Shown here: one piece after another, positions 3,079 to 20,991 of the stretch | Layout: every line of letters starts with the position of its first letter | Numbering within the stretch: the stretch's first letter is position 1 | Assembly (NCBI RefSeq): GCF_001942625.1 | Contig: NZ_MLCL01000016.1 | Location: 1 to 64,000, forward strand | Length of the DNA: 64,000 nucleotides | Direction of reading: 5' to 3' | From: Mycobacterium syngnathidarum | GTDB taxonomy: Bacteria > Actinomycetota > Actinomycetes > Mycobacteriales > Mycobacteriaceae | Notes under the pieces: generated by a model | What the model saw: the letters and a program-made list of their open reading frames with translations, nothing else | Told to the model about the DNA's origin: nothing | The model's database searches: none | Position numbers and translations under genes: made by a program

Positions 3079-3146
3079 CTGTTTGACGTTCCGCTGACCG
3101 GTCACCGGTGCTGTTACCGGCGCCACATCCCAGGTTGACTGCAGAC

Positions 3147-3632
3147 ATGAGCAACGAGATCACCCTGTCTGAGGTCCAGGAATTCATCTCCGGTTTCTGG
3201 TTCCACTACGACCAGGGCCACTTCGAAGAATTGGGCCCCCGCATCGGGGTCGAGATGGAGTACCTGAGCCGTTCCGACTCGGGGGCGTGCCCGTTCGAGG
3301 ACCTGCTCGCCGCCGAGTTGCACGGCAAGGCCGAAACTTTGGCCTGGCTCATCGAGCACCGCAACGTGAATCCGTACCCGTGCCGCCATCACATCACCAA
3401 CGTGTACCGCACGGGAACCGACGGCGAAGTCACCAACGTCCGGTTCTATCTGTTCGTCAACCAGATCACCAACAATGTTCCGTTCGCGGTGTCCAGTGGC
3501 GTCGTCGACGCCGGCATCCGGCGGTCGGAAGACGGTCTGGTCTTCACCTCGCTGAACGTCGTGCTCGACGCCGAGGACTCGGTCCCGCTCGCCGAGCACA
3601 CCGCCAAGGCCGCGGCTGCGCAATCCGCGTGA
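3147..3632 (+). CDS. SnoaL-like / NTF2-fold protein
   Basis: A 161-residue protein from ATG 3147 (MSNEITLSEVQEF). Length, an early aromatic-rich helix and the pattern CRHHITNVYR followed by a strand NVRFYLFVNQ are typical of SnoaL-like NTF2-fold proteins of catabolic clusters, which include hydratases, isomerases and small dioxygenase subunits. The 68-bp gap upstream carries one copy of the dyad motif CCGCTGACCGG (3091-3101), suggesting its own promoter. The next SDR starts inside its stop codon (GTGA), so the two are coupled. The reaction cannot be assigned. Confidence 0.65.
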   Translation: MSNEITLSEVQEFISGFWFHYDQGHFEELGPRIGVEMEYLSRSDSGACPFEDLLAAELHGKAETLAWLIEHRNVNPYPCRHHITNVYRTGTDGEVTNVRFYLFVNQITNNVPFAVSSGVVDAGIRRSEDGLVFTSLNVVLDAEDSVPLAEHTAKAAAAQSA

Positions 3633-4492
3633 GCGCCCGAGAAATCTTCGGTGGCGGCATCGCCGTCATCACGGGAGCCGGCGCCGGAATCGGCGCCGGT
3701 CTGGCCCGGTATGCCAGCCAGTTGGGTATGACGGTGGTGTTGGTCGACGTCAACGCCGAGGCCATCGCGGGCCTCCGCGAAGAAATCGACGCCGCAGGCG
3801 GATCCGCGACCGACGTGGTCTGCGATGTGCGGGATGCGGACGCGGTGCAGGCGCTGGCCGATGACGTCTACCGCGACTTCGGGCCGGTACGCCTGTTGGT
3901 GAACAACGCCGGTATCGAACAGTTCGGGTATCTGTGGGACACCCCGGTTTCCAACTGGCAACGCGTCGTCGACATCAACATCAGCGGCGTGTTCCACGGC
4001 GTCAAGGCATTCCTGCCGAAGATGATGGCCACCGACGAACCTGCCTGGGTATGGAACCTGTCCTCGATCGGCGGTGTCGCCGTGGTTCCGCTGCAGGCGC
4101 CCTACATCATGAGCAAGCACGCGGTACTCGCTCTGACCGAATGTCTGCATCTGGAAGTGCAGTCCGCCGGCCATGACCACCATGTGCACGTCCAGGCAGT
4201 GCTACCGGGTGCCGTGGTCTCGAGCATCTTCGAATCCGCGGGCGGGGTGGACTCGGGGGACACGGGTGCGGCCGAAGGACAACGCACCGCGATGCTCGAC
4301 ATCAAGGCCGAGGCGATGGATCCGCTGGCCGCGGCGGAGGTGGTCTTCGACCAGGCTGCCGAGGGCAAGTTCTTCCTGCTCACGCAACCGGACTACGTAG
4401 GATCTGCCATGGCGGAACGGGCTCGTGTCTTGAGTGGCCAGGAAGCGCCCCGTTTGCGGACCGAGCGCCGCTTCGACCCGGCAAAGAACTGA
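3629..4492 (+). CDS. Short-chain dehydrogenase/reductase (SDR)
   Basis: A 287-residue classical SDR with the NAD(P)-binding TGAGAGIG at residues 15-22, LVNNAGIEQFG, the catalytic Ser region NLSSIGG and a YxxxK motif (YIMSK). An Asp at the end of the second strand (VLVDVN) points to NAD(H) preference. Start GTG 3629 overlaps the stop of the SnoaL-like gene. The C-terminal tail is longer than in minimal SDRs. In this island it may oxidise a hydroxysteroid or a hydroxyacyl intermediate; this is an inference from context. Confidence 0.85.
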   Translation: MSAREIFGGGIAVITGAGAGIGAGLARYASQLGMTVVLVDVNAEAIAGLREEIDAAGGSATDVVCDVRDADAVQALADDVYRDFGPVRLLVNNAGIEQFGYLWDTPVSNWQRVVDINISGVFHGVKAFLPKMMATDEPAWVWNLSSIGGVAVVPLQAPYIMSKHAVLALTECLHLEVQSAGHDHHVHVQAVLPGAVVSSIFESAGGVDSGDTGAAEGQRTAMLDIKAEAMDPLAAAEVVFDQAAEGKFFLLTQPDYVGSAMAERARVLSGQEAPRLRTERRFDPAKN

Positions 4493-4493
4493 A

Positions 4494-5432
4494 ATGGCTT
4501 ATCCACCACTTGATCCCGACGCCGCTGAACGGGTGGCCTCGTCCGGCCAGATAGCTCCGATGCGGGCCCGCGGCCTCGCCGCCGTCCGTGAGGGGCTTGA
4601 ATGCGCCCCTCTTCCGGAGATGCCGGCCATGGCGGGCATCGAAGACCTGACGGCCACGGGCCCGGGCGGTCCGATACCGCTACGCCTCTATCGGCCCAGC
4701 CCCGCGCCCGGACTACCGGTGCTGGTGTACCTGCACGGCGGCGGGCTGGTGATGGGCTCGAACCATTCGTTCGAGCCCCTCGCCCGTGAATTGGCGTGCG
4801 CCAGCGGCGCCGCCGTCGCGGCGGTCGACTACCGGCTGGCACCGGAATCTCCGCCACCGGCGCAATTCGACGATTCTTATGCCGCCACCGAATGGGTCGC
4901 TGCCAACGCCGATCACCTCGGCCTCGACGCCGGCCGGCTGGCAGTTGTCGGGGACAGCGCCGGGGGATCGCTGGCCGCCGCAGTGGCATTGGCCGCCCGC
5001 GATCATGCCGGTCCGCGAATCTGCGTCCAGGTGCTGCTGTACCCCGGCCTGGACCGCGACATGGGGGCCGCCTCCATCATCTCGATGCCCGACGCCCCAC
5101 TGCTTCGCAATGAGGACATCGTCTACATGCACGAGCTGGTCGACCGTGGCGGGGCTCCGCGTGACCCGTATCAGGTTCCGGCCTATGCCACCGACCTGAG
5201 CGGCCTGCCGGCGGCGATCGTCGTCACCGGGGCGTGCGACCCGATCCGGGATTGGGGTGAACGCTACGCCGGGCGCCTGCGCGATGCGGGCGTGCAGACC
5301 ACTGTCACGCGTTATCCCGGTATGTACCACGGCTTTCTGATGCGCTCGGATGCCACGGCGCGCGGGCGGTTGGCGATGGCCGAGACCGCCGCGCTGCTCC
5401 GGGCGAGGTTCGCACATCCCTTGACCTTCTGA
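4494..5432 (+). CDS. Alpha/beta hydrolase, hormone-sensitive-lipase family
   Basis: A 312-residue carboxylic-ester hydrolase. It shows the oxyanion-hole YLHGGGLVMGS, the nucleophile elbow GDSAGGSLAAA, the acid in GACDPIRDWG and the terminal His in MYHGFLM, in the order and spacing of the HSL (type IV) family. ATG 4494 follows the SDR stop by one base, so it closes the plus-strand run that began with the crotonase. It could release an acetyl or other ester or open a lactone formed by Baeyer-Villiger oxidation; the substrate is not visible. It converges on the zinc-type dehydrogenase downstream. Confidence 0.85.
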   Translation: MAYPPLDPDAAERVASSGQIAPMRARGLAAVREGLECAPLPEMPAMAGIEDLTATGPGGPIPLRLYRPSPAPGLPVLVYLHGGGLVMGSNHSFEPLARELACASGAAVAAVDYRLAPESPPPAQFDDSYAATEWVAANADHLGLDAGRLAVVGDSAGGSLAAAVALAARDHAGPRICVQVLLYPGLDRDMGAASIISMPDAPLLRNEDIVYMHELVDRGGAPRDPYQVPAYATDLSGLPAAIVVTGACDPIRDWGERYAGRLRDAGVQTTVTRYPGMYHGFLMRSDATARGRLAMAETAALLRARFAHPLTF

Positions 5433-5443
5433 GGGACGGTGCC

Positions 5444-6454
5444 TCAGTCGAAGGTGACGACGATCTTGTCGGCAGCGCCCGGAGTGGCAGCCATTCCCAG
5501 CGCCTCGTCGACATCGTCGAACCCGAACGTGTGGCTGACGATCACCGCGTACTTCTCCCAGTCCGCGACGATGTCGCGGGTGACCTCGAAAATCTCCGTC
5601 GGGTACCCCATCGAGCCGATGATCGTTATCTCGTTGCTCATCAGGTTGATGAGATCCACCGTTACCGGTTCCTTGTGTACCGCAACCACTCCCAGCTTGG
5701 CACCTCGCTTCGCCAATCCCAGTGCACTGTCGATCACCGCCGGAACACCCGCGGCGTCGAGGTATACATCGGTGCCCGCCTTACCCGGCCATACCGAGTC
5801 GCCAGGCCCATGAAGCTCGGTCAGCCTCGCAGCAAGATCGTCCTCGGCCGAGTTGATCACCGCGTCGGCACCAACTTTGAGCGCCTTGTCCAGACGGGCG
5901 GGGAGCACGTCGACCACGACGACATGGCCGACCCCACGTGACTTCAACGCGATCGTCGCACCCAGTCCGATGGGCCCAGCCCCGAAAACGACGACCTTGT
6001 CGGCCGGACCGGGCGCAACCTGGTTGACCGCATGCCGGGCAACGGCCATGGGCTCATTGAGCGCAGCGACCTCAAACGGAACGAAGTCCGGGATGACCTC
6101 CAGGTTCTTGCCCCGGACGGCGTCGTGCACGAGCAGCAACTCGGCGAGAGCACCGCGGGCGCCGCCATTTCCGATGATGTCGTCAGGCGACGCCATGGGA
6201 TCGACGACGACGTGGTCACCGACCGCGAGGTCGGTCACCTCGCTGCCGACCGCGACGATTTCGCCCGCAGGCTCGTGTCCCAGCGGCATGGCGCCCTGAT
6301 GCGGTGGCAGTCCGCCGATCGAGATGTAGAACGCGTCGGTTCCACAGATCCCGCAGGCCCGTATCTTCACCAATGCGTCGCGGGGACCGACAGCCGGGTC
6401 GGGCCGTTCGACAACATCGGTGTGGCCCGGGCCGTCGACGATCGAAATCTTCAT
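5444..6454 (-). CDS. Zinc-type alcohol dehydrogenase (MDR superfamily)
   Basis: A 336-residue medium-chain dehydrogenase with the catalytic-zinc motifs GICGTD and GHEPAGE and a Rossmann fold (FGAGPIGLGATIAL). The four-Cys structural zinc lobe of classical ADHs is missing (the loop reads DPMASPDDIIGNGG). I prefer ATG 6454 over the upstream GTG 6460 because an AGGAG ribosome site lies at the right distance and overlaps the GTG. It is the last gene of a minus-strand run with an SDR, a metallo-hydrolase and a sulfotransferase, after a 51-bp gap. Substrate unknown; a hydroxyl on the island's steroid-like substrate is plausible. Confidence 0.85.
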   Translation of the reverse strand: MKISIVDGPGHTDVVERPDPAVGPRDALVKIRACGICGTDAFYISIGGLPPHQGAMPLGHEPAGEIVAVGSEVTDLAVGDHVVVDPMASPDDIIGNGGARGALAELLLVHDAVRGKNLEVIPDFVPFEVAALNEPMAVARHAVNQVAPGPADKVVVFGAGPIGLGATIALKSRGVGHVVVVDVLPARLDKALKVGADAVINSAEDDLAARLTELHGPGDSVWPGKAGTDVYLDAAGVPAVIDSALGLAKRGAKLGVVAVHKEPVTVDLINLMSNEITIIGSMGYPTEIFEVTRDIVADWEKYAVIVSHTFGFDDVDEALGMAATPGAADKIVVTFD

Positions 6455-6505
6455 GTGCACTCCTGGTTTGGTGGGTAGTTGACGAAATGCGGAGGTGGCA
6501 CGCCC

Positions 6506-7255
6506 CTACTGCACGCTGTAGCCGCCGTCGACGACGAAAGCCGAGCCCGTGCAGTACGACGCACTCCGGGTGCACAGAAACAAGATGGCATCGGCAATCT
6601 CGGTGGGAGTTCCGAATCGGCCAAGGGGAATGTGGTCGACCTGTGCCTGCTTCACCTCGGGGACGTAGTCCATCGGGGCGGTCATCGGCGTCTCGATCAC
6701 CCCGGGTGCCACCGCGTTGATCCGGATCTCGTCAACCGCCCACTGTGCCGCCAGGTTGCGGGTCAGCGACAGGACACCCGCCTTGGCCGCGCCATAACCG
6801 GGCACCATTGCCACGGCACGAATTGCCGCCATCGACGCCAGCATCACCACGCTGGCCCCGCCGGCAGCCGTCGAAGCCTTCAGCGCGGCGTGCAGCGCTG
6901 TCGTCAGCCGAAAAGGAGCCAGGAGATTGACGTTCACCGAAGCCTCGAAGCCTGGGGCCGTCGACTCGTCCAGGCCGCCCGGGAAGTTGGCACCGGCGTT
7001 GTTGACGAGGATGTCCAGAGTCGAGAATTCGGCGGCGAGCTCACCGGTTCCGTCCACATCCATCATGTCGAGCTGCCGATAGGACAGGCCGTCGAGGTCC
7101 ACCGCGTAGTGGGACGGATCGGGTTTGGTCCCGGTGACGGTCACCTCGGCGCCGGCGTCGCGCAACCGTAGCGCCGTGGCGTGCCCGATGCCGCTGGTCC
7201 CACCCGTGATGAGTGCGGTAGCGCCGGTGAAGTCGAAGGCGAGATTGTTGGTCAA
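6506..7255 (-). CDS. Short-chain dehydrogenase/reductase (SDR)
   Basis: A 249-residue classical SDR: cofactor motif TGGTSGIG near residue 18, LVNNAGANFPGG, catalytic Ser in LASMAA, YGAAK and a C-terminal GSAFVVDGGYSVQ. Translation starts at TTG 7255, whose TTGA overlaps the stop of the upstream metallo-hydrolase, so the rare start codon is supported by coupling. The TGT after the second strand suggests NADP(H) tolerance. It belongs to the sulfotransferase operon and probably acts on the alcohol that the sulfatase-like enzyme releases; that link is inference. Confidence 0.85.
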   Translation of the reverse strand: MTNNLAFDFTGATALITGGTSGIGHATALRLRDAGAEVTVTGTKPDPSHYAVDLDGLSYRQLDMMDVDGTGELAAEFSTLDILVNNAGANFPGGLDESTAPGFEASVNVNLLAPFRLTTALHAALKASTAAGGASVVMLASMAAIRAVAMVPGYGAAKAGVLSLTRNLAAQWAVDEIRINAVAPGVIETPMTAPMDYVPEVKQAQVDHIPLGRFGTPTEIADAILFLCTRSASYCTGSAFVVDGGYSVQ

Positions 7256-8505
7256 GACAGCTCCTTGATTCGTTCCCGCAGCCAGGCGGATTCCCAGAAG
7301 TTGGTGCTTTCTTCGAGCAGGAGTTCGTGTGCGGCGCGCAGAACACCGATTGCCCCGGCATGGTCGTCCTGCACGGTGGTGACCACCTCGGCGAGCCGGA
7401 TCGAGTTGACCGGGTCACCGTCCTCCAGCAGCGCACGGGCCCGGTCCACCAGCGCGTCGGCGCCGGCGAGTTCGACAAGATGTGCCGAAACCGGTTCCAC
7501 GGCATCGGGATAGAGCTCGGCGGTGGATTCATGGTGGAACCAGCCGGCGTAGTTCTCCCAAATCGCACGGACGTTCCAGCTCACCTTGCCGTAGCCCTGC
7601 CCGACTTCGAGCTCGGGCGGCAACTGGACCTCGCGCATCAGGGTGCGGACGTCCTTGCCCTGGTTCATGCCGGCCACGGTCTCGTCGTGGATGAAGGCCA
7701 CCGCGTCGCGAAGTCTGCCCAGTTCCCAGTCGATCCGTTCGCGGCCCGTGATGGGCCCGAAGTGACCGGTCAGCAGAACCTCGGCACCGAGCGCCCGGAC
7801 GCGTTCGATCGAATCGATGACGGTCAGCGCGTCGCGGTAGCGGTCACCGCGCATCGTGACCAGGTTCGGGATGTGGCCGAAGAGCGCCCCGAAGACGTTG
7901 CCGCACAGGCAGACCTTCTCGTCCGGCAGCCACACCACCAAGCTGTCCGTGGTCTCTCCACCTGGTGTGGCGAGGAGTTCCAGGCGCCGATCGCCCAACG
8001 ACAACTCGAGTCGGTCCTCGACGGTGATCGTCGGGGTGGGAACACCTTGAGGAGGCGGCGGTCCGCCGAAGCGCTTGGTCGCGTAGGCAATGGCAGACAT
8101 CACCTTTTCGAGCCAAGCGAACGACGAGTTCGCGGTCCTGAAGGGTGCCAGCAGTTCGTTGTCCCGTCGCCACGTCACCCAGTCGGCGTGCGCGATGACG
8201 TCCGTCCCCGGGTCGCTCAGTACGTCGATGCCGCCCACGTGGTCGACGTGCCCCTGGGTGAGGATGACGTAGCGGATCGGCGTCGAATCGACCGCGTCGT
8301 AGTTCGACCGGTGCACTTGCGCTTCGAAACCCATGCCGGTGTTGACGACGATCCGTCCCTCGCTGGTCGGGATGAGGAACGAGTTCGACAGTCCCGGAGA
8401 CCACCAGATGCCGGGGGAAACCTCTTGCGCGGCGGGGGCATTCGCACCGACGATCGACTCGGCTCCTGGGCGGCTGCGGTAGATCGGCTCGAAATCGGTC
8501 ATCAT
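7252..8505 (-). CDS. Alkylsulfatase-like metallo-beta-lactamase-fold hydrolase
   Basis: A 417-residue MBL-fold protein with a C-terminal segment (NYAGWFHHESTAELYP near 310) that matches the dimerisation domain of SdsA1/BDS1-type alkylsulfatases, enzymes that hydrolyse primary or secondary alkyl sulfate esters. The metal motif reads TQGHVDH (residues 83-89): H86, D88 and H89 are kept but the first His of HxHxDH is Gln84. Later ligands appear present (GNVFG, TGHFGP). It starts within the sulfotransferase stop (ATGA) and its own stop overlaps the SDR start, so three genes are translationally coupled. A sulfatase role fits the context, but the Gln substitution leaves the exact chemistry open. Confidence 0.75.
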   Translation of the reverse strand: MMTDFEPIYRSRPGAESIVGANAPAAQEVSPGIWWSPGLSNSFLIPTSEGRIVVNTGMGFEAQVHRSNYDAVDSTPIRYVILTQGHVDHVGGIDVLSDPGTDVIAHADWVTWRRDNELLAPFRTANSSFAWLEKVMSAIAYATKRFGGPPPPQGVPTPTITVEDRLELSLGDRRLELLATPGGETTDSLVVWLPDEKVCLCGNVFGALFGHIPNLVTMRGDRYRDALTVIDSIERVRALGAEVLLTGHFGPITGRERIDWELGRLRDAVAFIHDETVAGMNQGKDVRTLMREVQLPPELEVGQGYGKVSWNVRAIWENYAGWFHHESTAELYPDAVEPVSAHLVELAGADALVDRARALLEDGDPVNSIRLAEVVTTVQDDHAGAIGVLRAAHELLLEESTNFWESAWLRERIKELS

Positions 8506-9749
8506 GCTTCCTTCCTGACGTCGAAACGCTCGAAGTAGAAGTCGAACCGGGACCGGATGTCCTCGGGCGAGCGGCCGAAGTCGCGTTCGAGTTCGTAGCG
8601 CATTCGGCCGTGCTTTCCGCGCGGGTTGCTGTCGAGATAGGCACCAAATGCGGCCTTGGCGTCGCCGGTCATGTCGGTACCGTTGTATCCATAGAGTTTT
8701 TCGAGGATGGTCAGCTCCTTTCCGTTGAGGTCGTGAAAGGCGATGTCGAGGCTCTGATTAGCGGGGACGAGATCGCGGTCTCGCACGCAGGCGCGCAGAA
8801 GTGTCTCGACACGATCGGTCCAGTAGTCGACCAGAGACTCGGGGTCGACGTCGTGGCGGCGGATTCGATCGCCGTAGGCCAACATGGTCACCGCCGACTG
8901 GATGACCGCAACCGGATCCCGGTGGGTGAAGGCCACCGTGGCATCGGGGAAGGTGTTGATCAACGGGCCCAACTGCTCACAGTGTTGTGGCGACTTCAGC
9001 ACCCAGGTGCGTGGTCCACGCAGGAAGGTCAGGGCCTTGAGGGTCGTGCGTAGGTATGCGTAATGCTCGTTCTGATCCAGGCCGTAGTAGAAATCGCGCC
9101 ACGAGGGCACCCGCGCGTGCCATTCCAGGACGTAGCTGGCGAAGTCGAGATCCAACAGCTCGACTTCCTCCTCGATGGCCGCGGGAAACCGATCGTGCAT
9201 CGCCTGGAGCAGCGGGACCATGACCTGTGCCCCCTCGTGTTCCGCGGCGCAGCGGGCATATCGGGGATCCGTTCCATCGACGGCAGGGCCCTCCCCCCGC
9301 AGCGGGAAAGGTTCCTGGGACTCCCAGTACGGGAGAGCGCGCCGCCGGCGGTCCGCCGCGATGAGATTGACCAGGTGAGTCGTCCCCGAACGAGGAAGTC
9401 CGACGACGATCATGGGGCGCTCGATCTCGATGTCGTGGATCTCGGGATACCGGCGCAGCAGATCGGTCAGCAGCAGGCGTTGAGTGAGCAACCGAACAGT
9501 TCTCTGGCGCAGGTTGATTCGATTGAGGTTCGTGTTTCCCGCGTCCGCATCGATCGCCGCCGCATACATGTCGAGGCGGGGCCGGAAGTCATCGGAACCG
9601 AAATCGCTGACGCCGGCCCGCTCCCTTGCCTCACGGATCAAGGCATCTGGGGACAGATCAACGGATAAATCGGCGACTTGGTCAAGAACTGCTTGCTGCG
9701 TTGCTGTCAGACGCGGCGAGACCAGATCATCGACTGTGGTTTCCAGCAT
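8502..9749 (-). CDS. Sulfotransferase family protein (PAPS-dependent)
   Basis: A 415-residue protein with the sulfotransferase P-loop-like 5'-phosphosulfate motif PMIVVGLPRSGTTHL at residues 112-126 and a 3'-phosphate-binding region (VAFTHRDPVAVIQS) further on, as in the Stf/Sulfotransfer_3 group common in mycobacteria. It would move sulfate from PAPS to a hydroxyl or amine. It is the first gene of the minus-strand operon, divergent from the IclR regulator across a 58-bp gap with repeated CGAATA sites. Pairing of a sulfotransferase with a sulfatase-like hydrolase and two dehydrogenases in one operon is unusual. Confidence 0.8.
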   Translation of the reverse strand: MLETTVDDLVSPRLTATQQAVLDQVADLSVDLSPDALIREARERAGVSDFGSDDFRPRLDMYAAAIDADAGNTNLNRINLRQRTVRLLTQRLLLTDLLRRYPEIHDIEIERPMIVVGLPRSGTTHLVNLIAADRRRRALPYWESQEPFPLRGEGPAVDGTDPRYARCAAEHEGAQVMVPLLQAMHDRFPAAIEEEVELLDLDFASYVLEWHARVPSWRDFYYGLDQNEHYAYLRTTLKALTFLRGPRTWVLKSPQHCEQLGPLINTFPDATVAFTHRDPVAVIQSAVTMLAYGDRIRRHDVDPESLVDYWTDRVETLLRACVRDRDLVPANQSLDIAFHDLNGKELTILEKLYGYNGTDMTGDAKAAFGAYLDSNPRGKHGRMRYELERDFGRSPEDIRSRFDFYFERFDVRKEA

Positions 9750-9777
9750 GGTCGATACGCCTCCATGTATTGCGATG

Positions 9778-9808: not shown

Positions 9809-10707
9809 TGAACGGAAAGCTAGGCCCGTCTGTGCCTGCGGGTCAAGACCTGTCACCCCCGACCACCCGGGTGGTCGACATCATCGAGTTGCTGGTGCGG
9901 CGGCCCGCCGACCGGCCGACGTTGGCCGAAATATGCCGTGAGCTGGATGTGAGCCGGTCGACTGGCCACGCGATCGTCCACACGTTGTGCGCTCGTGGAT
10001 GGGTCTCGCGTGACCCACTCAGTGGGAGGTTCTCCTTGGGGCCCACGCTGTCGGGCCTTGGAGATCCCGATGGATCGCCGTCCCGTTCACTGCGTGAACC
10101 ACTTCAGCACTTGTGCGCCACGCTGGGCATGCCGATGTGCATCTCCGCACTCCAAGACCGAACCATCGTCGTCGTCGAGTCCGCCGCCGCACCCGGTACC
10201 CGCGCACCCGTGCCCGCCGGTCTGCGGCTCCCCTTCGTTGCCCCCTTCGGCCGCGAATTCGTCGCCTGGGCACCGGCGTCCGAACGCGCCGACTGGCTCG
10301 CTGCAGCGGGCCCGGTCAACCAGCCCTTTCGCCGGCGAATCAGTCAGGTACTGAATGAGATTCAAGTCCGGGGCTACGGCATAGAACGTCTCAGCGATCC
10401 ACTCCTGCAAGTGTTCACCGCTCTGAAGGCACTCGACAACGGCACACCACCCGGGCCGTTGTCGACGCGCCTGGCCGCCGCCGTGGCAGATCTGACCGTG
10501 GTCGATCAGCTACCGACAGACGAACCCGATGCGACACCTCTGGCAACCATCTCGGCCCCGATCTTCGATGACGCGGGGACGGTGGTCATGACGGTCTCGG
10601 CACAGCCGTACCGGACGATGCGTCCTCAGGAGCTCGAAACCGTAGGCGCCGGCGTGGTCGAGTTCGCACGCGACGCAGCGATACGTGCCGGGCTTACAAC
10701 CGAATGA
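9808..10707 (+). CDS. IclR-family transcriptional regulator
   Basis: A 299-residue regulator starting at ATG 9808. The N-terminal winged helix reads TTRVVDIIELLVRRPADRPTLAEICRELDVSRSTGHAIVHTL, followed by GWVSRDPLSGRFSLGP, which is the IclR pattern; the remaining part is the GAF-like effector domain. It is divergent from the sulfotransferase operon and upstream of the ketosteroid isomerase gene. IclR proteins commonly govern adjacent catabolic operons in response to an aromatic, acyl or steroid metabolite; the effector here is unknown. Confidence 0.88.
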   Translation: MNGKLGPSVPAGQDLSPPTTRVVDIIELLVRRPADRPTLAEICRELDVSRSTGHAIVHTLCARGWVSRDPLSGRFSLGPTLSGLGDPDGSPSRSLREPLQHLCATLGMPMCISALQDRTIVVVESAAAPGTRAPVPAGLRLPFVAPFGREFVAWAPASERADWLAAAGPVNQPFRRRISQVLNEIQVRGYGIERLSDPLLQVFTALKALDNGTPPGPLSTRLAAAVADLTVVDQLPTDEPDATPLATISAPIFDDAGTVVMTVSAQPYRTMRPQELETVGAGVVEFARDAAIRAGLTTE

Positions 10708-10724: not shown

Positions 10725-10739
10725 TGTGCCGCTCAACGG
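10725..10739. promoter_or_regulatory. Island dyad motif upstream of the ketosteroid isomerase gene
   Basis: CCGCTCAACGG at 10729-10739 fits the dyad CCGnTnAnCGG exactly; the flanking TGTGCCGCTCAAC is nearly repeated between kshA and kstD (TGTTCCGCTCAAC at 18479). The copy sits about 45 bp before the start at 10783. Other copies lie at 3091-3101, 13880-13890 and 20981-20991 (exact), and at 13119-13129, 16314-16324 and 18483-18493 (one deviation). Confidence 0.45.
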
Positions 10740-10782
10740 AACATGGTCGTCCGCCACCTTTCATTCGATCTACCGTTCGCCC

Positions 10783-11169
10783 ATGACCGATACCCCAGAC
10801 CTGACCGCGACCATCACCGAGACGGTGAGCCGATACCTGCACCTGATAGCAACGGGCACCGCCGACCAGATCCTCGAGCTCTTCGCCGAAGACGCCAGCG
10901 TCGAGGACCCGGTGGGCACAGCGCCCCGCGTGGGATCGACAGAGATCCGAGAGTTCTTCGCATCGTTGGGAGCACTCGAACGCACAACGACGCTGCAGTC
11001 GCTGCGTGTCTGTGGGCAAGAAGCCGCGTTCCAGTTCCGGATTGCCTTCGATGCCGGCGACGGCCCGTTGCACCTCGAACCGATCGACATCATGACCTTC
11101 GACGTAGACGGCAAGATCACCTCGGTCAGGTCATTCTTTTCCGCATCGGACATTAAGGCAGCAGAATGA
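10783..11169 (+). CDS. Ketosteroid isomerase-like protein (steroid delta5-isomerase family)
   Basis: A 128-residue NTF2-fold protein from ATG 10783. It aligns along its whole length with Pseudomonas and Comamonas delta5-3-ketosteroid isomerases, and all catalytic residues are present: Tyr18 (SRY), the proton-shuttling Asp42 in SVEDP and the second acid Asp101 in PIDIM. The family moves the double bond of a 3-keto-delta5 steroid to the conjugated delta4 position, the step that prepares substrates for KstD and KshA, both encoded about 7 kb downstream. It overlaps the next gene by ATGA. The assignment is strong at family level; activity on a steroid is inferred. Confidence 0.8.
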   Translation: MTDTPDLTATITETVSRYLHLIATGTADQILELFAEDASVEDPVGTAPRVGSTEIREFFASLGALERTTTLQSLRVCGQEAAFQFRIAFDAGDGPLHLEPIDIMTFDVDGKITSVRSFFSASDIKAAE

Positions 11170-13075: not shown

Positions 13076-13118
13076 GTGGTTATTTGATCAACTTGTCGCG
13101 ATAGTGCCGCCGTTCATC

Positions 13119-13129
13119 CCGCTCAGTGG
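13119..13129. promoter_or_regulatory. Island dyad motif (one mismatch) in the LLM/TetR divergent gap
   Basis: CCGCTCAGTGG deviates at one position from CCGnTnAnCGG. The same 94-bp gap also holds the palindrome TTGATCAA (13084-13091) next to the start of the luciferase-like gene. Either could be the site of the adjacent TetR regulator. Confidence 0.3.
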
Positions 13130-13169
13130 GCGCCCCAATACGCCGACTCGGCCAGCGACATGACACTCG

Positions 13170-13835
13170 ATGCTGTCCAGCATCTCGAGATCGAGGAATG
13201 TGAGCGCTTCAGTGGATCGCACCTCGCCGGTTTCGGTGGCCAAGCCACGGGTCCGGCCCGGCGGACGTAGCGAGCGCATCCGCGAATCGGTAATGCGCGC
13301 CTGCCTGGAGCTCTTGACCGAGGGGAAGATCGAGCTGCCGATCGCGGAAGTCGCCGAACGATCGGGCGTTAACCGCGGCACCGTCTACCGGTGGTGGCCC
13401 ACCTCGACCGAGTTGCTGAACGATGCCCTGGCATTCCACGCGCGTCATCGCACAGATGCTCCCGACACCGGGGCATGGAAGAGCGACGTTCGCGCGCTGG
13501 TCACCCAACTCGCCTCGCTTGCAGCCGATCCCGTCGAACGCGGGATCATCGCCACGATGATTTCCGGTCGGTACCCGTGCCTGAACGACGCGATGATGGG
13601 CTGGTGCCGAAACGATCTCCCGCATTGGTTCGCGATGATCGGGCGCGCCATGGGCCGTGGCGAGGTGGATCCTGACGTGGATCCGGCCATCGTCCTTCAG
13701 ATGATGCTGGCGCCGGCGGTGTCTGTCTCACTCTTCGACGGGCGAGCGCTGACTGACCAGGAGATCGACTCGCTTGTGACGTTGGTATGCCGCGCAACGA
13801 CGATTTCCCGCGGCCCGGCAACTGGCGCCGAATAG
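13170..13835 (+). CDS. TetR-family transcriptional regulator
   Basis: A 221-residue TetR-type repressor if ATG 13170 is used; an internal valine start nearer the conserved region (VAKPRVRPGGRSERIRES) is also possible. The helix-turn-helix is IAEVAERSGVNRGTVYRWW, followed by an all-helical ligand domain. It is divergent from a luciferase-like gene and upstream of an unrecognised 358-residue protein and an SDR. It probably controls one or both; the ligand is unknown. Confidence 0.85.
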   Translation: MLSSISRSRNVSASVDRTSPVSVAKPRVRPGGRSERIRESVMRACLELLTEGKIELPIAEVAERSGVNRGTVYRWWPTSTELLNDALAFHARHRTDAPDTGAWKSDVRALVTQLASLAADPVERGIIATMISGRYPCLNDAMMGWCRNDLPHWFAMIGRAMGRGEVDPDVDPAIVLQMMLAPAVSVSLFDGRALTDQEIDSLVTLVCRATTISRGPATGAE

Positions 13836-13879
13836 CTGCACTTGGCCGGCGTTTGCTGGTGGCGCCGTGAATTGGGTTC

Positions 13880-13934
13880 CCGATCAGCGGTCACCGTCAC
13901 GTTCGATGCCTCGCCATGCCGCCACACTCGAACG
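13880..13934. promoter_or_regulatory. Promoter region with island dyad motif and a second inverted repeat
   Basis: The 134-bp gap before the gene at 13970 holds CCGATCAGCGG (13880-13890; complement CCGCTGATCGG), an exact fit to the island dyad, and an inverted repeat CGTTCGA (13900-13906) / TCGAACG (13928-13934). A clear AGGAGA ribosome site follows at 13957-13962. Confidence 0.4.
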
Positions 13935-13969: not shown

Positions 13970-15046
13970 ATGCTGACCGATGAACGGCGCCTCGAGCTGT
14001 CCGACATCCTGCGTCCCGCGGCCCCTCCTCGCGAGATCACGGATGTATACACCGACGACCAGAAGCAGAGACTCCTCGAAGTCGTACGGACTCAAGGGCC
14101 GTGGAACCTCATCATCGCGCAGCACTTCGCATCGGCGGACGAATTGATGGCCACCATGAGCGGTGCGTTCCCTGAGGGTTTCACTCCATCGCTGGATCTG
14201 TTCCTCACCCCGACGTTCCGCGGTCATCTGGCCAGCCACGGGACCGTCCTGTACCCGGAGTTGCACGACTGCTTCTACAACGCCACATTCATTGAGCACG
14301 CCAAGAAGTACTGGAATGCGCAGTACGCCAAGCCTGAGATAATGCTGTTCAACATCAACGGTCCGTGCGCCAACCGCGACCCCGGTCATCTGGACTCCCC
14401 CAGCTTCCGCGGCGTCCGCTATGAGAACGCCCCCACCTGGCTGTGCAGCGTGATGGGCAAGTCCGGCCTGTTCAACGATTACCTGATCAAGATGGCGCAG
14501 GTGATCACCTGGTTCTCCCTGGATGAGGGTTCCGGCTTCACCTACTGGCCCGACGGCCCGCTCAAGCCACCCGCCCGGGTCCAACCGCCGATCAACAACC
14601 GCGGGGTCGTGGTGCAGAACGAGATGATGATGCACCGCGGAGAAGCTAACGGCCCACTGGCTCAGCAGGTTCCGGCTGGCCTGGCCTTCGACACCGTGTT
14701 CACCGGGGACCCGGCAGACCGCGACCAGTGGCTGCTGAAGAACGGCGAAGATGTCATTGCCCGCCACCACACCGACGAGCTGAGGTTCCTCGTCCACTGG
14801 TCTGCCGAGGTGTTCTCCGACTACGAAGAACTCAAGAAGAACATGGACGGTTCGGACGACATCACGATCGAACGCGCCATCGGAATGATGGTCGACGATC
14901 TCAAGGTCAAGGGCATCAAGCTCGACGTACCCGGCGAGCCGTTGCATGACCCGGCGTTCATCGGAGCGCTCAACGCCGCCTACGACCTCGGTGGCCCCAG
15001 CAGCTACCCGGAAGAGGCTCCCATCTCCGCCTTTCAACTCTCCTGA
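13970..15046 (+). CDS. Unrecognised protein, possibly a non-haem iron oxygenase
   Basis: A 358-residue soluble protein with no signal peptide or membrane segment; ATG 13970 is fixed by AGGAGA seven bases upstream. I do not recognise a named family. Two stretches stand out: NRDPGHLDSPSFRG, with an HxD pattern near residue 138, and MMMHRGEANGP, with a His followed by Arg near residue 222. HxD...H with this spacing occurs in Fe(II)/2-oxoglutarate oxygenases of the PhyH type, so a hydroxylase is conceivable, but I cannot see the rest of the fold. It is followed 17 bp later by an SDR and a SnoaL-like gene in a likely operon. Low certainty on function, high certainty that it is a real gene. Confidence 0.6.
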   Translation: MLTDERRLELSDILRPAAPPREITDVYTDDQKQRLLEVVRTQGPWNLIIAQHFASADELMATMSGAFPEGFTPSLDLFLTPTFRGHLASHGTVLYPELHDCFYNATFIEHAKKYWNAQYAKPEIMLFNINGPCANRDPGHLDSPSFRGVRYENAPTWLCSVMGKSGLFNDYLIKMAQVITWFSLDEGSGFTYWPDGPLKPPARVQPPINNRGVVVQNEMMMHRGEANGPLAQQVPAGLAFDTVFTGDPADRDQWLLKNGEDVIARHHTDELRFLVHWSAEVFSDYEELKKNMDGSDDITIERAIGMMVDDLKVKGIKLDVPGEPLHDPAFIGALNAAYDLGGPSSYPEEAPISAFQLS

Positions 15047-15063
15047 TCTCGAAGGGACATCTG

Positions 15064-15846: not shown

Positions 15847-15866
15847 GCAGTGGAAGGAATGTGGGC

Positions 15867-16310: not shown

Positions 16311-16313
16311 TGC

Positions 16314-16338
16314 CCGGTCAGCGAGAGCACGGGTGCTC
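16314..16338. promoter_or_regulatory. Island dyad motif plus adjacent palindrome upstream of the KstR-like gene
   Basis: CCGGTCAGCGA (16314-16324) has one mismatch to the dyad CCGnTnAnCGG. Immediately next to it is GAGCACggGTGCTC (16325-16338), a 6-bp inverted repeat. Further on, AACCTAGTGTT (16354-16364) is a weaker dyad resembling the AAC...GTT arrangement of KstR sites but with the wrong spacing. Confidence 0.4.
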
Positions 16339-16369
16339 AAACAGCTGAGGCGAACCTAGTGTTGTCATC

Positions 16370-16993
16370 GTGAGGTCATCTGAGTTGAATGTGGAGACGA
16401 CGTGCCTGATGACCCCCGAATCATATTCGGGGACAACAGAACTCACTGCGCGCCGGAGGGCCCGTCGCGAGCGGATCGTCAATGCTGCGACGTCACTGGC
16501 TCTCCAGGGCTACGACGCATGCCAGATCCGTACAGTCGCCGCGACGGCGGGCATGTCGGCCAGCACTGTGTACCAATACTTCCCATCGAAGGACGACCTG
16601 CTGCTCGCATGTTTTTACGAATGGCTGTGGGATTTCGAAACTGAGTATCGTTGCGGCACCAGCGACACGGATCCGTTTCAGCGTCTGCTGCAGGTCTCCC
16701 TGGCCCTCACCGGCAGGCTCTGCTCGTCACCACAATTTGCCGAAGCCATGATTCGCCCGTACCTCTATGCTGACGGCGCTGCTGCGACCCAGGCCGACCT
16801 GGTGCGACGGCAGACCGTTCGGATCTTTGTTCGTGCCGTCGGAGGCGAAGATTCGGCGACGAGAGAGATCGGCGCTGCCGAAATCCTCTCCGACGTCTGG
16901 ATGTCCAATGTCGCAGCATTCGCTCAGCAGCGCATCGCGGTGGCGGAACTGTCAGAACGGATCGCCCGTACCGTCGGCCTCCTGAAGGGGTAG
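16370..16993 (+). CDS. TetR-family regulator similar to KstR
   Basis: A 207-residue TetR protein. Its helix-turn-helix (IRTVAATAGMSASTVYQYFPSKDDLL) and the ligand domain (DPFQRLLQVSLAL; EAMIRPYLYADGAAA; AAEILSDVWMSNVAAFAQQR) follow the M. tuberculosis KstR sequence, the repressor of sterol catabolism that responds to steroid acyl-CoA. GTG 16370 is the longest start; ATG 16409 is a reasonable alternative. Its position next to kshA/kstD makes it the prime candidate for controlling the island. It is a paralogue-like copy, not KstR itself, because the neighbourhood differs from the core cholesterol locus. Confidence 0.8.
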   Translation: MRSSELNVETTCLMTPESYSGTTELTARRRARRERIVNAATSLALQGYDACQIRTVAATAGMSASTVYQYFPSKDDLLLACFYEWLWDFETEYRCGTSDTDPFQRLLQVSLALTGRLCSSPQFAEAMIRPYLYADGAAATQADLVRRQTVRIFVRAVGGEDSATREIGAAEILSDVWMSNVAAFAQQRIAVAELSERIARTVGLLKG

Positions 16994-17010
16994 CCGACGG
17001 TCTCCGGGCT

Positions 17011-17289: not shown

Positions 17290-17291
17290 CT

Positions 17292-18437
17292 TCACCCCAC
17301 GGACCCGGAGGTGGCGGCGCGGGCAGCGAGATTGGCTTCGACTTCCCTCATCCAAGCCTCATACGGCCGGGTGGTGTCCAGCTCGAATTCGAAGCGGTCC
17401 ACCATGTCCGGCGCGACGTCCGCCGCATCGACATAGAACTGCTCATACCAGCGCCGCAGCTGGTACACCGGCCCGTCCTCTTCCACGAGCAGCGGATTGT
17501 CGATCCGGGTCTTGTTGCGCCAGATCTCGACGTCCTGCTCGAATCCCATCTTGACGAAGTCGCCGAGTGCGATGGCGGTCTCCATGGCGAGTTCCTCCGG
17601 CATGGCCGCATTCTTTTCCACCACGATGCCGTACTGCAGCACAAAAGAATTGGCGTCGATCGGGTAGTGGCAGTTGATCAAGACCGTGCGCTGGTCGAAC
17701 TCCTGGTAGTGATAGGTCAGATCATCGATCATGAACGACGGGCCATGGTAGGCAGCCAGCGAGGTGGTGCCGAGCAGCTTGGACCCCTCGGGATCGCCGA
17801 TATCCGGCCGGCCCGCACTCTTCATGTACTGAGTCGCGACTTGGCCTTCGAAAATGTTCTTGAAATGAGTGGGAAGCGAACCGTGGATGTAGAAGAAATG
17901 CGCCATGTCGACGACGTTGTCGATGATCTCGCGGCAGTTTGTGTTGACCACCGTCGTGTACCAGTGCCATTCGGTCCACCCATCGCTGGTGGCCCCCTCG
18001 ATGCGCGGAATAGTCACATCCGCCGGCGGCGGCTTGCGCTCGGGGTCATTCCAGACGAACAGCATGCCGTCCTGCTCCATCGTGGGCCAGGCCGCGGTTC
18101 TCGCCAATCGGGGGGTGCGCTTGCTGTAGGGCACCATCTTGCACCGGCCGTCGCCGCCCCAGCGCCAATCGTGGAACGGGCAAGCGATCTCGTTGCCCTT
18201 CACCGTCCCCTGCGAGAGGTCCCCGCCCATATGCCGGCAGTACCCGTCGAGCACGTTGATGGCGCCGTCCTCCCCCCGGAACACCACCAGCTTCTGCCCG
18301 AAGGCATTGATCTGGTGAGGCTTTCCATCACCGAATTCGCGGACCAGCCCCAGGCAGTGCCAGCCGCGGGCGAATCTGGTGGGTACCGAACCGGCCTCGA
18401 TCAACCGAACTTCGTCGGTATCTGCGTGCGTCGTCAT
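17292..18437 (-). CDS. kshA: 3-ketosteroid-9alpha-monooxygenase, oxygenase component (KshA homologue)
   Basis: A 381-residue Rieske non-haem iron oxygenase that, with reductase KshB, hydroxylates C9 of 3-ketosteroids and thereby opens ring B together with KstD. The Rieske ligands are C67, H69, C86 and H89 (YCRHMGGDLS; ACPFHDW); the mononuclear iron ligands are H180, H185 and D302 (DMAHFFYIH; QDVEIW). Long segments such as HMGGDLSxGTVKGxE and TRIDNPLLVEEDGxVYQLRR match M. tuberculosis KshA as I remember it. The start ATG 18437 is 72 bp from the divergent kstD. No reductase gene kshB is in the window, so it must be supplied from elsewhere. Confidence 0.92.
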   Translation of the reverse strand: MTTHADTDEVRLIEAGSVPTRFARGWHCLGLVREFGDGKPHQINAFGQKLVVFRGEDGAINVLDGYCRHMGGDLSQGTVKGNEIACPFHDWRWGGDGRCKMVPYSKRTPRLARTAAWPTMEQDGMLFVWNDPERKPPPADVTIPRIEGATSDGWTEWHWYTTVVNTNCREIIDNVVDMAHFFYIHGSLPTHFKNIFEGQVATQYMKSAGRPDIGDPEGSKLLGTTSLAAYHGPSFMIDDLTYHYQEFDQRTVLINCHYPIDANSFVLQYGIVVEKNAAMPEELAMETAIALGDFVKMGFEQDVEIWRNKTRIDNPLLVEEDGPVYQLRRWYEQFYVDAADVAPDMVDRFEFELDTTRPYEAWMREVEANLAARAATSGSVG

Positions 18438-18478
18438 GGCCCCATTGAACTGCGATGACGCACCGGCGGGAAGGTCAG

Positions 18479-18493
18479 TGTTCCGCTCAACAG
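18479..18493. promoter_or_regulatory. Candidate operator between kshA and kstD
   Basis: TGTTCCGCTCAACAG (18479-18493) contains a TGTT...AACA dyad and a one-mismatch copy of the island motif (CCGCTCAACAG). It is in the 72-bp divergent gap and could control both genes. The same TGTkCCGCTCAAC core occurs before the ketosteroid isomerase gene. Confidence 0.45.
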
Positions 18494-18509
18494 GAGACCA
18501 GAATCAACT

Positions 18510-20243
18510 TTGCCGGTTATCGCCCTATCGTCTTCGGTCGTGACCGCCACCACCCACAAGACCATTCCCGCCGGGCTGCCCGTTGCCGCCACCGACGTAG
18601 ACCTTCTCGTCGTCGGATCCGGTACCGGCCTCGCCGCCGCCCTGGCAGCCCGCGAGCAGGGGTTGTCCGTTCTCGTCGTCGAGAAGTCGTCCTACGTCGG
18701 CGGCTCGACGGCCCGATCCGGTGGTGCGCTCTGGTTGCCGTCGAGCCCGGTGATCGAGGACTGCGGCGGCAACGACCCCGTGTCTCGGGCACACACGTAC
18801 CTGGAATCGGTCGTCGGGGATTCCGCGCCACAGGAGCGTTCCGCCGCATACCTCGACAACCTGCCGGCAACGGTCGAAATGTTGCGCCGAACCACGCCCA
18901 TGAAGCTGTTCTGGGCCAAGGAGTACTCCGACTATCACCCCGAGGCACCCGGTGGATCGGCGGCAGGGCGCACTTGTGAATGTCGCCCGTTCAACACGGC
19001 TGTGCTCGGCGAATACCTGGCCGACCTGCGGCCCGGTGTCATGGAAGTCAAGATTCCGATGCCGACCACAGGTGCCGACTACCGCTGGCTGAACCTGATG
19101 AGCCGGGTGCCACGAAAAGGGCTGCCCACCATCGCCAAACGACTTGCCCAGGGCATCGGCGGGCTCGCGCTCGGCAGGCGCTACGCCGCCGGCGGCCAGG
19201 CGCTGGCCGCGGGCCTGTTCGCCGGAGCAATTCGTGCCGGGATCCCGATCTGGCTCGACACCTCACTGACCGAGCTGGTCACCGACGGAGGCCGAGTCAC
19301 CGGCGCCGTCGTCGAGCATGGCGACAAGACGTTCACCGTCACCGCGCGGCGTGGTGTCGTGCTCGCGGCCGGCGGCTTCGATCACCACATGGACATGCGC
19401 CACAAGTTCCAATCCGAGTCTCTGGGAAGCAATCTCAGCCTGGGTGCAGAATCCAACACCGGCGACGCCATCCGGTTGGGTCAGGATGTCGGTGCCGACA
19501 TCACTTTGATGGATCAATCCTGGTGGTTTCCCGCCGTCGCCCCACTGCCGGGCGCCGCCCCAGCGGTGATGCTCGCCGAACGATCGCTGCCCGGATCGTT
19601 CATCGTCGACCAGGACGGTCATCGGTTCGCCAACGAATCGGCCGACTATATGAGCTTCGGGCAACGCGTCCTGGAACTCGAAAAAGCCGGTACGCCGGTC
19701 GAAGACATGTGGATCGTCTTCGACCAGCAGTACCGCAACAGCTACGTCTTTGCCGCCGAACTGTTTCCACGCATGCCGATCCCACAGACCTGGTACGACG
19801 CCGGAATCGCGGTCAAGGCAGACAATTTCACCGAGCTGGCAGCCAAGATGCGGGTGCCGCAGGACAGCTTCTTGGCCACCGTCAGGCGATTCAACGAGAA
19901 CTCTTTCGCCGGTGAGGATCCCGACTTCGAACGCGGCCGCAGCGCCTACGACCGTTACTACGGCGACCCCACGGTCACACCGAACCCCAACCTGCGCCCG
20001 CTGGTCAAAGGCCCGTTCTACGCGGTAAAGATGGTGCTGAGCGACCTGGGTACGTGCGGCGGTCTGCGAGCCGACGCCCACGCCCACGTGCTTCGCGAGG
20101 ACGGCACCGTCATCGACGGGCTCTACGCGATCGGCAACACCGCCGCCAACGCATTCGGCCACACCTATCCCGGTGCCGGGGCGACCATCGCGCAGGGATT
20201 GGTCTACGGCTACATCGCCGCACTCGACGCTGCCGGAAGATAA
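18510..20243 (+). CDS. kstD: 3-ketosteroid delta1-dehydrogenase (KstD family), FAD-dependent
   Basis: A 577-residue flavoprotein that introduces the C1-C2 double bond into 3-ketosteroid ring A. FAD motif VVGSGTGLAAALAAREQGLSV near residue 35; KstD signature AKEYSDYHPEAPGG; the catalytic Tyr/Gly pair of the family corresponds to Y553 and G557 in GHTYPGAGATI. The C-terminal KGPFYAVKM and LYAIGNTAANAFGHTY are also typical. The longest start is TTG 18510 with AGGAG rather far upstream; GTG 18540 is an alternative. Divergent from kshA: together the two proteins perform the ring-opening steps. Substrate could be androstenedione-like or another 3-keto steroid. Confidence 0.9.
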   Translation: MPVIALSSSVVTATTHKTIPAGLPVAATDVDLLVVGSGTGLAAALAAREQGLSVLVVEKSSYVGGSTARSGGALWLPSSPVIEDCGGNDPVSRAHTYLESVVGDSAPQERSAAYLDNLPATVEMLRRTTPMKLFWAKEYSDYHPEAPGGSAAGRTCECRPFNTAVLGEYLADLRPGVMEVKIPMPTTGADYRWLNLMSRVPRKGLPTIAKRLAQGIGGLALGRRYAAGGQALAAGLFAGAIRAGIPIWLDTSLTELVTDGGRVTGAVVEHGDKTFTVTARRGVVLAAGGFDHHMDMRHKFQSESLGSNLSLGAESNTGDAIRLGQDVGADITLMDQSWWFPAVAPLPGAAPAVMLAERSLPGSFIVDQDGHRFANESADYMSFGQRVLELEKAGTPVEDMWIVFDQQYRNSYVFAAELFPRMPIPQTWYDAGIAVKADNFTELAAKMRVPQDSFLATVRRFNENSFAGEDPDFERGRSAYDRYYGDPTVTPNPNLRPLVKGPFYAVKMVLSDLGTCGGLRADAHAHVLREDGTVIDGLYAIGNTAANAFGHTYPGAGATIAQGLVYGYIAALDAAGR

Positions 20244-20270
20244 CCGGCCCGAAATACCGAAGGACGGAGT

Positions 20271-20936
20271 TCAGTCGGCGTCTTCGGCGTCGGCTTTCCG
20301 TTCGATCTCATACCAGTAGGCGGGATCTGGCCACGGTATCTTCGCGCCTTCACCGACTTTCGGGAATTTGGCTTCGGCTTCGTCGAGATCTTTGATCAGC
20401 TGCAGGGTGAGTTCCCGCTCGGACGCGTAGTAGCGATCCGCCCAATCCAACGCGATCTTGGCATATGCCCACGCTGGGTCGGCTCCGGACCAACGGGCCT
20501 CCTTGGCGGCATCTCGTTGCATCCCATCCACGTAGGCAAGATGTTCCTGCAGCATCTGCTTCAGCGTGGCGGGGTCACTCAGGTGACCCATCGTCACCCG
20601 CATGAGCGCCGGGTGCTTCAACGACGGCGGATCCGGCGGTGTCTTCCTGGCCCACTGCGTGACGGCATCCAGACCGGATTCGGTGATCTTGTAGAGCCGG
20701 CGGTTTCGCGTGCCGGTCCCGTCCACCCGCGAGGTCAGGTAACCCATCTTTTCGAGCTTCTTCAGATCGGAGTAGATCTGGCTGTAAGCCGGACTGCCGT
20801 AGTAATAGCGCATGCTCCAGTGGAGCCATTTGCGGATGTCGTAGCCGGAGAGTTCTTGCTCATACGACAGCAACCCGAGCAGCGCCCAGCTGGTGGCGGC
20901 GAGCGCCGGCTTGGCTGCCTGCTCGGATTCTTCCAT
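20271..20936 (-). CDS. PadR-family transcriptional regulator
   Basis: A 221-residue regulator from ATG 20936. The N-terminal winged helix (ALLGLLSYEQELSGYDIRKWLHW; YSQIYSDLKKLEKMGYLTSR) and the long helical C-terminal dimerisation domain are those of PadR/Vir proteins. It is divergent from an HsaB-like flavin reductase; the 125-bp gap carries an exact island dyad (CCGCTGACCGG, 20981-20991). PadR repressors respond to phenolic or hydrophobic ligands, fitting an aromatic steroid intermediate, but the ligand is not known. Confidence 0.85.
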   Translation of the reverse strand: MEESEQAAKPALAATSWALLGLLSYEQELSGYDIRKWLHWSMRYYYGSPAYSQIYSDLKKLEKMGYLTSRVDGTGTRNRRLYKITESGLDAVTQWARKTPPDPPSLKHPALMRVTMGHLSDPATLKQMLQEHLAYVDGMQRDAAKEARWSGADPAWAYAKIALDWADRYYASERELTLQLIKDLDEAEAKFPKVGEGAKIPWPDPAYWYEIERKADAEDAD

Positions 20937-20980
20937 GGTGCAAGGGTAACAATCGAGGTCACGACACTTGTCCGTCCGAA

Positions 20981-20991
20981 CCGCTGACCGG
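20981..20991. promoter_or_regulatory. Island dyad motif in the PadR/flavin reductase gap
   Basis: CCGCTGACCGG, identical over 11 bases to the copy at 3091-3101. It sits 45 bp upstream of the PadR start and 71 bp upstream of the flavin reductase start. Confidence 0.45.

Follow-up and report, generated by a model that had tools for sequence, protein, structure and literature searches.

A 17-bp dyad at a fixed distance from start codons is the likely operator of a PadR-family regulator in mycobacterial steroid islands

We analyzed a 64,000-nucleotide stretch of the Mycobacterium syngnathidarum genome (positions 1 to 64,000 of contig NZ_MLCL01000016.1; hereafter, the window), which is a Mycolicibacterium-type segment: eight of its proteins, encoded at 15.0-22.2 kb, are 97-99% identical to those of a strain of M. 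peregrinum (L001), the closest relative that we compared. The window contains an island of genes for a short-chain dehydrogenase, an esterase, an alkyl-sulfatase-like protein, a sulfotransferase, an LLM monooxygenase, kshA, kstD, a flavin reductase, and a thioesterase, along with regulators (one IclR, two TetR, and one PadR). A preliminary description of this DNA reported that an 11-bp motif, CCGnTnAnCGG, recurs in most promoter gaps of the island and suggested one island-wide regulator. We found that these 11 bp form the central part of a longer, 17-bp dyad whose geometry is fixed. Judging from sequence comparisons, the dyad is likely (with a probability of about 0.68) to be the operator of the island's PadR protein (20271-20936), predicted to act there as a dimeric activator of transcription. 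The genes concerned are:

3147..3632, + strand: SnoaL-like gene (snoaL); ATG 3147 is the likely start; SnoaL is the name used in the preliminary description, and the open reading frame itself has no Pfam match
10783..11169, + strand: ketosteroid-isomerase-like (KSI-like) gene; ATG 10783 is the likely start; also named in the preliminary description, without a Pfam match
13170..13835, + strand: TetR-family regulator (TetR 13170), a likely target; found in 4 of 80 islands
13970..15046, + strand: 358-residue protein (hyp358) without a Pfam match, used as the marker for locating orthologous islands
16370..16993, + strand: KstR-like TetR (TetR 16370), the candidate regulator of the preliminary description; a likely target
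17292..18437, - strand: kshA-like 3-ketosteroid 9-alpha-hydroxylase oxygenase; 51 bp from start to dyad
18540..20243, + strand: kstD-like 3-ketosteroid dehydrogenase; GTG 18540 is the likely start (the open reading frame is listed from TTG 18510)
20271..20936, - strand: PadR-family regulator (padR) of 221 amino acids, with the Pfam PadR domain and a PadR fold; the proposed owner of the dyad
21035..21598, + strand: flavin reductase; ATG 21035 is the likely start

The dyads in the gaps of the island are:

3088..3104, centre 3096: GTTCCGCTGACCGGTCA, before snoaL; TTGACT at 3135-3140; likely start ATG 3147 (+51)
10726..10742, centre 10734: GTGCCGCTCAACGGAAC, before the KSI-like gene; TACCGT at 10771-10776; likely start ATG 10783 (+49)
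13116..13132, centre 13124: ATCCCGCTCAGTGGGCG, between the divergent genes LLM 12173 (ATG 13075, distance 49) and TetR 13170 (ATG 13170, +46)
13877..13893, centre 13885: TTCCCGATCAGCGGTCA, before hyp358 (ATG 13970); CACACT at 13923-13928
16311..16327, centre 16319: TGCCCGGTCAGCGAGAG, a weaker dyad before TetR 16370; TAGTGT at 16357-16362; GTG 16370 (+51)
18480..18496, centre 18488: GTTCCGCTCAACAGGAG, between the divergent kshA and kstD; -10-like TATCGT at 18526-18531 (kstD) and TTCAAT at 18449-18444 (kshA)
20978..20994, centre 20986: GAACCGCTGACCGGGAG, between the divergent padR (ATG 20936, distance 50) and flavin reductase (ATG 21035, +49)

In the window, 9 of the 10 genes that face a dyad have an in-frame start codon 46-52 bp from it. 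Counted from the centre of the dyad, the distances are 51 for snoaL, 49 for the KSI-like gene, 46 for TetR 13170, 49 for LLM 12173, 51 for TetR 16370, 52 for kstD, 51 for kshA, 49 for the flavin reductase, and 50 for padR; the exception is hyp358, the gene with a leader. Three divergent pairs (kshA/kstD, padR/flavin reductase, and TetR/LLM) each share one dyad. The dyad before the KSI-like gene is kept in two relatives (L001 and L002).

The 11-bp core is not informative by itself. Its exact copies at 3091, 10729, 13880, and 20981 and its one-mismatch copies at 13119, 16314, and 18483 lie where the preliminary description placed them, and the first gap holds a second exact copy (3098-3108), overlapping the first, which that description missed. 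The whole window contains 15 exact copies, compared to 2.5 expected (standard deviation, 1.6): 5 are in gaps of the island and 10 are inside open reading frames (including those at 4522 and 13977). There are also 102 one-mismatch copies, compared to 57 expected. The statement that other intergenic gaps have none is correct for the exact copies; the one-mismatch copies were not sorted by place. We also counted CCGNTSANCGG across the 6.8-Mb genome of the closest relative, without splitting coding from non-coding DNA: there are 474 copies, versus 88 for a reversed control. Because it is so frequent, the bare 11-mer is only weakly diagnostic and cannot serve alone as a genome marker. This frequency, and the 10 of 15 exact copies inside open reading frames, favor the view that a GC-rich palindrome recurs here by chance or through codon usage. 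However, the density in the gaps speaks against this: between 246 and 23,447, the non-coding DNA (1,194 bases, as defined with re-assigned gene starts) contains 5 exact copies, compared to 0.036 expected. Together with the recovery of the dyad by motif discovery and its constant geometry relative to permuted controls, both described below, this makes chance a negligible explanation. What is informative is that the dyad is wider (17 bp), is conserved at the promoters of orthologous genes, and lies at a constant distance from start codons and from -10-like hexamers.

The preliminary description also noted that the motif differs from the consensus for KstR, and it does. The operator of KstR has the consensus TNNAACNNGTTNNA; within positions 1-23,500, allowing up to one mismatch, this matches only at 7486 and 8375, both within genes, and not in any promoter gap.

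To find orthologous islands, we used hyp358 as the marker. It is present in 196 of 396 genomes sampled from the genus, and we analyzed the regions of 80 of these. The relatives considered were the best 120 of 909 for hyp358 and the best 120 of 429 for PadR. As a side observation, the hyp358 proteins of mycobacteria share about 80% identity, and one homologue among the matches listed, at 70% identity, is from a Sphingomonas. Eleven islands that were found via the alignment of the TetR protein keep the motif at many orthologous gaps, even where the flanking sequences differ, and the kshA/kstD gap carries TGTTCCRCTSAnCAGGA or variants of it, also in genomes without TetR 16370.

Motif discovery was run separately on four sets of upstream regions, after near-identical rows were removed (82 to 64 for kstD, 75 to 67 for snoaL, 83 to 70 for hyp358, and 81 to 73 for padR). 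All four runs returned the same dyad: TTCCgCTcAncgGGAn for kstD, TTCCACTgAcCGG[GT]CA for snoaL, TCCCGATCAcCGGACa for hyp358, and TCCCGgCCAGCGGT for padR. The log-likelihoods were 639-865, compared to 47-61 for shuffled sequences. Three control sets, upstream of other genes, reached 235-655, but with different, coding-type sequences. Since control sets can score as strongly, the log-likelihood alone proves nothing; it is the repeated return of one sequence that does.

We then scored sites with a matrix built from 253 of 259 sites. At a threshold of 10 bits, we found sites before kstD in 77 of 80 loci, with a start codon at +46 to +53 in 76 of the 77, and before snoaL in 74 of 74 loci, with the start in this place in 70. 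For padR, 45 of 77 loci have such a site and all 45 have the start in place; at 7 bits, these numbers rise to 72 islands of 77 and 71 starts. The corresponding counts are 77 of 79 loci for kshA (46 of 77 starts in place), 10 of 13 orthologues for TetR 16370 (6 of 10), 15 of 22 loci for the flavin reductase (7 of 15), and 10 of 62 loci for the thioesterase, tesB (6 of 10). For hyp358, a site is present in 73 of 80 loci, with just 5 starts at +46 to +53. As controls, the neighboring esterase and short-chain dehydrogenase genes had no sites in 74 loci each, and a second dehydrogenase had 1 site in 36 loci. Permuted matrices gave a mean of 1.2-2.7 sites at the four main promoters, and no promoter had more than 5 starts at the expected distance.

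When the upstream rows were aligned on the dyad (63 of 64 rows for kstD, 66 of 67 for snoaL, 62 of 70 for hyp358, and 68 of 73 for padR, with a few centred on the wrong site), each set showed a second conserved block at about +36 to +44, with little conservation in between; this block is weakest in the padR set. It contains TA...T at +37 to +39 in 49 of 63 rows for kstD, TTGACT at +38 to +39 in 51 of 66 rows for snoaL, [TC]A.AAT at +37 to +38 in 50 of 62 rows for hyp358, and TA[GCA].[CT]T at +37 to +39 in 40 of 68 rows for padR. On the mirror side, a looser pattern for kshA lies at +37 to +39 in 43 of 63 rows. Thus, in five promoters, -10-like hexamers begin about 38 bp from the centre of the dyad, and these patterns are almost absent at other offsets. 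A generic TANNNT peaks at +37 to +39 only in the kstD and padR sets. The dyad thus keeps a constant distance to the -10 in several promoters, as a position-dependent activator site would.

Which protein owns the dyad? The preliminary description favored the KstR-like TetR 16370. This protein is indeed a relative of KstR, its closest solved relative (E = 1e-26 to KstR in the PDB), and there is a dyad before its own gene. However, it is present in just 13 of the 80 islands, whereas the dyad is found before kstD in 77 of 80. We reject it as the owner because of this distribution, and we consider it highly improbable as the island's regulator. Instead, TetR 16370 looks like a target, as the dyad before its own gene has the usual spacing (start at +51). 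Other candidates were also too sparse: TetR 13170 and the IclR protein are each in only 4 of 80 islands, and a further TetR, with a weak match to the MftR C-terminal domain, is in 25 of 80, which is not conserved enough. A dyad lies within 220 bp upstream of 21 of these 25 genes, with a start at +46 to +53 for only 1 of the 21; the gene may be a target. Inside the IclR gene, right after the region that encodes the helix-turn-helix, we noticed a dyad, GACCCACTCAGTGGGAG (10012-10028; 12.9 bits), and similar dyads are near IclR homologues in two other loci (L218:6181 and L221:11560).

This leaves PadR 20936, which was also on the preliminary description's list of proteins to test for binding and which fits best. 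It is the only regulator seen in nearly all of the islands (78 of 80), and both misses are an effect of where the stretches end: PadR is just beyond the end in one (G301) and about 16 kb beyond in the other (G338). In the genus draw, all 196 genomes with hyp358 have PadR, 55 have PadR only, and 145 have neither. The protein matches PF03551 (E = 4.5e-9, above the cut-off) and PadR relatives in the PDB (E = 2.8e-12). An AlphaFold model, computed from an alignment of 28 rows, has moderate confidence (predicted local distance difference test [pLDDT] of 77 and predicted template modeling score [pTM] of 0.68), and its best matches are PadR, VanR, and Rv1176c; it suggests, with moderate confidence, a PadR-type fold with C-terminal helices. 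The expectations of one island-wide regulator, of sites placed in gaps, and of conservation at orthologous promoters were all supported.

The dyad also accompanies padR away from these islands. We chose 18 loci by PadR instead: 17 of the 55 PadR-only genomes, plus G338 (which has hyp358). A dyad of at least 7 bits precedes padR in 14 of the 18, each with an ATG or GTG at +49 to +51 (permuted matrices: mean, 0.4; maximum, 5). In six of these 14 loci, the 14-kb stretch includes neither kstD nor kshA, although one of the six is G338, which has both elsewhere. In five loci (L200-L204), we observed that a gene for an amino-acid permease adjoins that for the PadR homologue (66-73% identity) and that kstD and kshA are absent from the 14 kb; the dyad before padR is kept nonetheless.

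At the level of the family, 121 of 301 genomes have PadR (this draw includes the genus), and we hand-picked 20 loci from outside the genus draw. These probably belong to other genera, because their kshA-like proteins, where found, are 54-60% identical, compared to 78-99% in the 80 islands. Steroid-type genes adjoin PadR in the distant loci. Motif discovery before padR in the 20 loci gave ngTCCCGGTcAGCGGn (log-likelihood of 149, versus 45-54 for shuffles), and an ATG or GTG is at +46 to +53 in 12 of 20 (permuted mean, 0.5; maximum, 2). Sites of at least 15 bits number 35 in 279 kb of these loci (permuted mean, 1.6; maximum, 17), compared to 3 in 1,150 kb of unrelated loci. In ten of the 20 loci (within L242-L254), strong dyads (at least 14 bits) occur in close pairs, 17-53 bp apart and often 36-39. 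Also, plasmid pRHL1 of Rhodococcus jostii RHA1 encodes a 46% identical PadR and has strong dyads near KSI-like, padR-like, and kstD-like genes; the start geometry is clear only at the KSI-like dyad.

Within genomes, the regulon may reach past the island. In six genomes, TTCCRCTSANCRGG has 3-8 copies per genome, or 30 in total, versus 5 for the reversed control; 13 of the 30 lie no more than 50 kb from hyp358. Neighboring stretches contain more gene pairs with starts at +50 to +52, such as divergent genes for proteins of 327 and 401 amino acids and of 528 and 641 amino acids, and a gene for a 537-amino-acid protein with CCTACCGT as its -10. We inspected 9 of 17 off-island sites: 7 have no start in place, 1 does (L231, 343 amino acids), and 1 is under the listing threshold (L232).

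How might PadR act? We infer that a PadR dimer would bind about 50 bp ahead of the transcription start, where it would contact RNA polymerase from one constant face of the DNA helix. Transcripts would begin at or near the start codon; in the window, the codons so predicted are 3147, 10783, 18437, 18540, 20936, and 21035. One symmetric dyad would then drive two divergent promoters at nearly equal distance, as for kshA/kstD, padR/flavin reductase, and TetR/LLM. PadR would also control its own gene, and the signal would be a steroid or a breakdown product. We propose activation because the distance of about 38 bp from the centre of the dyad to the -10 is held in five promoters, with the dyad just upstream of the place of a -35. 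PadR might instead own the dyad and repress: bound immediately before the core promoter, it would block RNA polymerase until freed by a ligand. Most members of the PadR family are repressors, the fold matches that include an operator are complexes of Bacillus subtilis PadR, and autoregulation is common for repressors; many mycobacterial promoters lack a -35 anyway. However, the dyad spans about -58 to -42, which leaves the -10 uncovered, and repression does not need a distance that is held within a few base pairs in five promoters. We view repression as unlikely.

Several other points weigh against an activating PadR that owns the dyad. First, the matrix was trained on the same island loci whose sites it scores, so the independent support comes from motif discovery and from the PadR-chosen and distant loci. 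The -10 hexamer patterns were picked after viewing the dyad-centred alignments, and several of the facing genes in the window have other in-frame starts, of which we took the one nearest +50. Second, the pattern has exceptions. With the 10-bit threshold, a site is lacking in 32 of 77 padR promoters and in 3 of 80 kstD gaps; no start is at +46 to +53 for 31 of 77 kshA sites, 8 of 15 flavin reductase sites, and 4 of 10 TetR 16370 sites; and just 10 of 62 tesB loci have a site at all. Third, four PadR loci (L205, L206, L208, and L209) have no dyad, and a Nocardia farcinica record lacks any PadR match, although it has strong dyads (L235:7115 and L235:8646) close to a kstD-like gene. This third group of exceptions would fit a binder that is encoded outside the island, or that differs by lineage, with PadR as merely another target. 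So would the weaker sites before padR in the genus (a mean of 12.6 bits, versus 15.2 for kstD and 16.2 for snoaL, among sites of at least 10 bits), and PadR's ownership is argued from association across genomes. Yet PadR is the only regulator in nearly all of the islands, and the dyad is found with padR even at loci where neither kstD nor kshA is its neighbor. We therefore consider an outside binder improbable, and we prefer the activating PadR.

A broader proposal is that secondary steroid islands form a family-wide regulon under a PadR activator, in which a dyad about 50 bp from leaderless starts fires divergent pairs symmetrically, with the TetR and IclR regulators as followers. We give this proposal about even odds.

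Two other observations concern the content of the island. The sulfotransferase and the alkyl-sulfatase-like gene at 7252-9749 might point to sulfated steroids as substrates. Also, the alkyl-sulfatase-like gene contains a 14.5-bit dyad, TGACCGGTCAGCAGAAC, at 7763-7779, in coding sequence.

In industrial sterol-converting mycobacteria, secondary kstD/kshA clusters are described as reducing yields (PMC5962712, in the part consulted). Our analysis corrects several gene starts, predicts further targets, and offers a signature for finding such regulons. Word searches of the literature, which did not include the letters of the motif, found no paper that gives this operator.

By its description, the island most likely resembles the C-19+ steroid cluster of M. 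smegmatis, which we take to span MSMEG_2851-2901. Fernandez-Cabezon and colleagues reportedly claimed in 2017 that a PadR-like gene beside kstD, MSMEG_2868, is the cluster's regulator. If so, then the owner was already known, and the operator, its geometry, and its reach would be the new part. In the portions of the literature that we consulted, C-19+ is described as a second cluster for steroids, which has a kstD of its own (MSMEG_2869) and lies outside the kstR regulon (PMC5962712, PMC10672877); how it is naturally activated is not established (PMC10672877); and no operator is given, whereas the island has the 17-bp dyad. An operator with constant geometry and a named candidate regulator make the question of activation directly testable. 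As in C-19+, the paralogues of kstD and kshA in the island lie outside the KstR regulon.

The island can also be compared to three other systems. First, KstR controls the main sterol genes (PMC7807495, in the part consulted). TetR 16370 is related to it, but the dyad is unlike the operator of KstR, and TetR 16370 is absent from most of the islands that bear the dyad. Second, the PadR domain and fold are shared with B. subtilis PadR bound to its operator (5x11) and with M. tuberculosis Rv1176c (8ioi). The usual PadR operator is ATGT-N8-ACAT; the element in the island differs, as it is a CCGnTSAnCGG dyad at a constant upstream place and probably has an activating sign. Third, according to the part of PMC7807495 that we consulted, Nocardioides simplex has a steroid-induced kstD2 with a divergent regulator, SRTF1 (KR76_27130), and a PadR gene (KR76_26400) whose operon has a predicted Acin3 site. 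The likeness to the island is in the steroid-induced kstD with a divergent regulator and in the presence of a PadR gene; the difference is that SRTF1 is a TetR, whereas the candidate that we propose for the island is the PadR.

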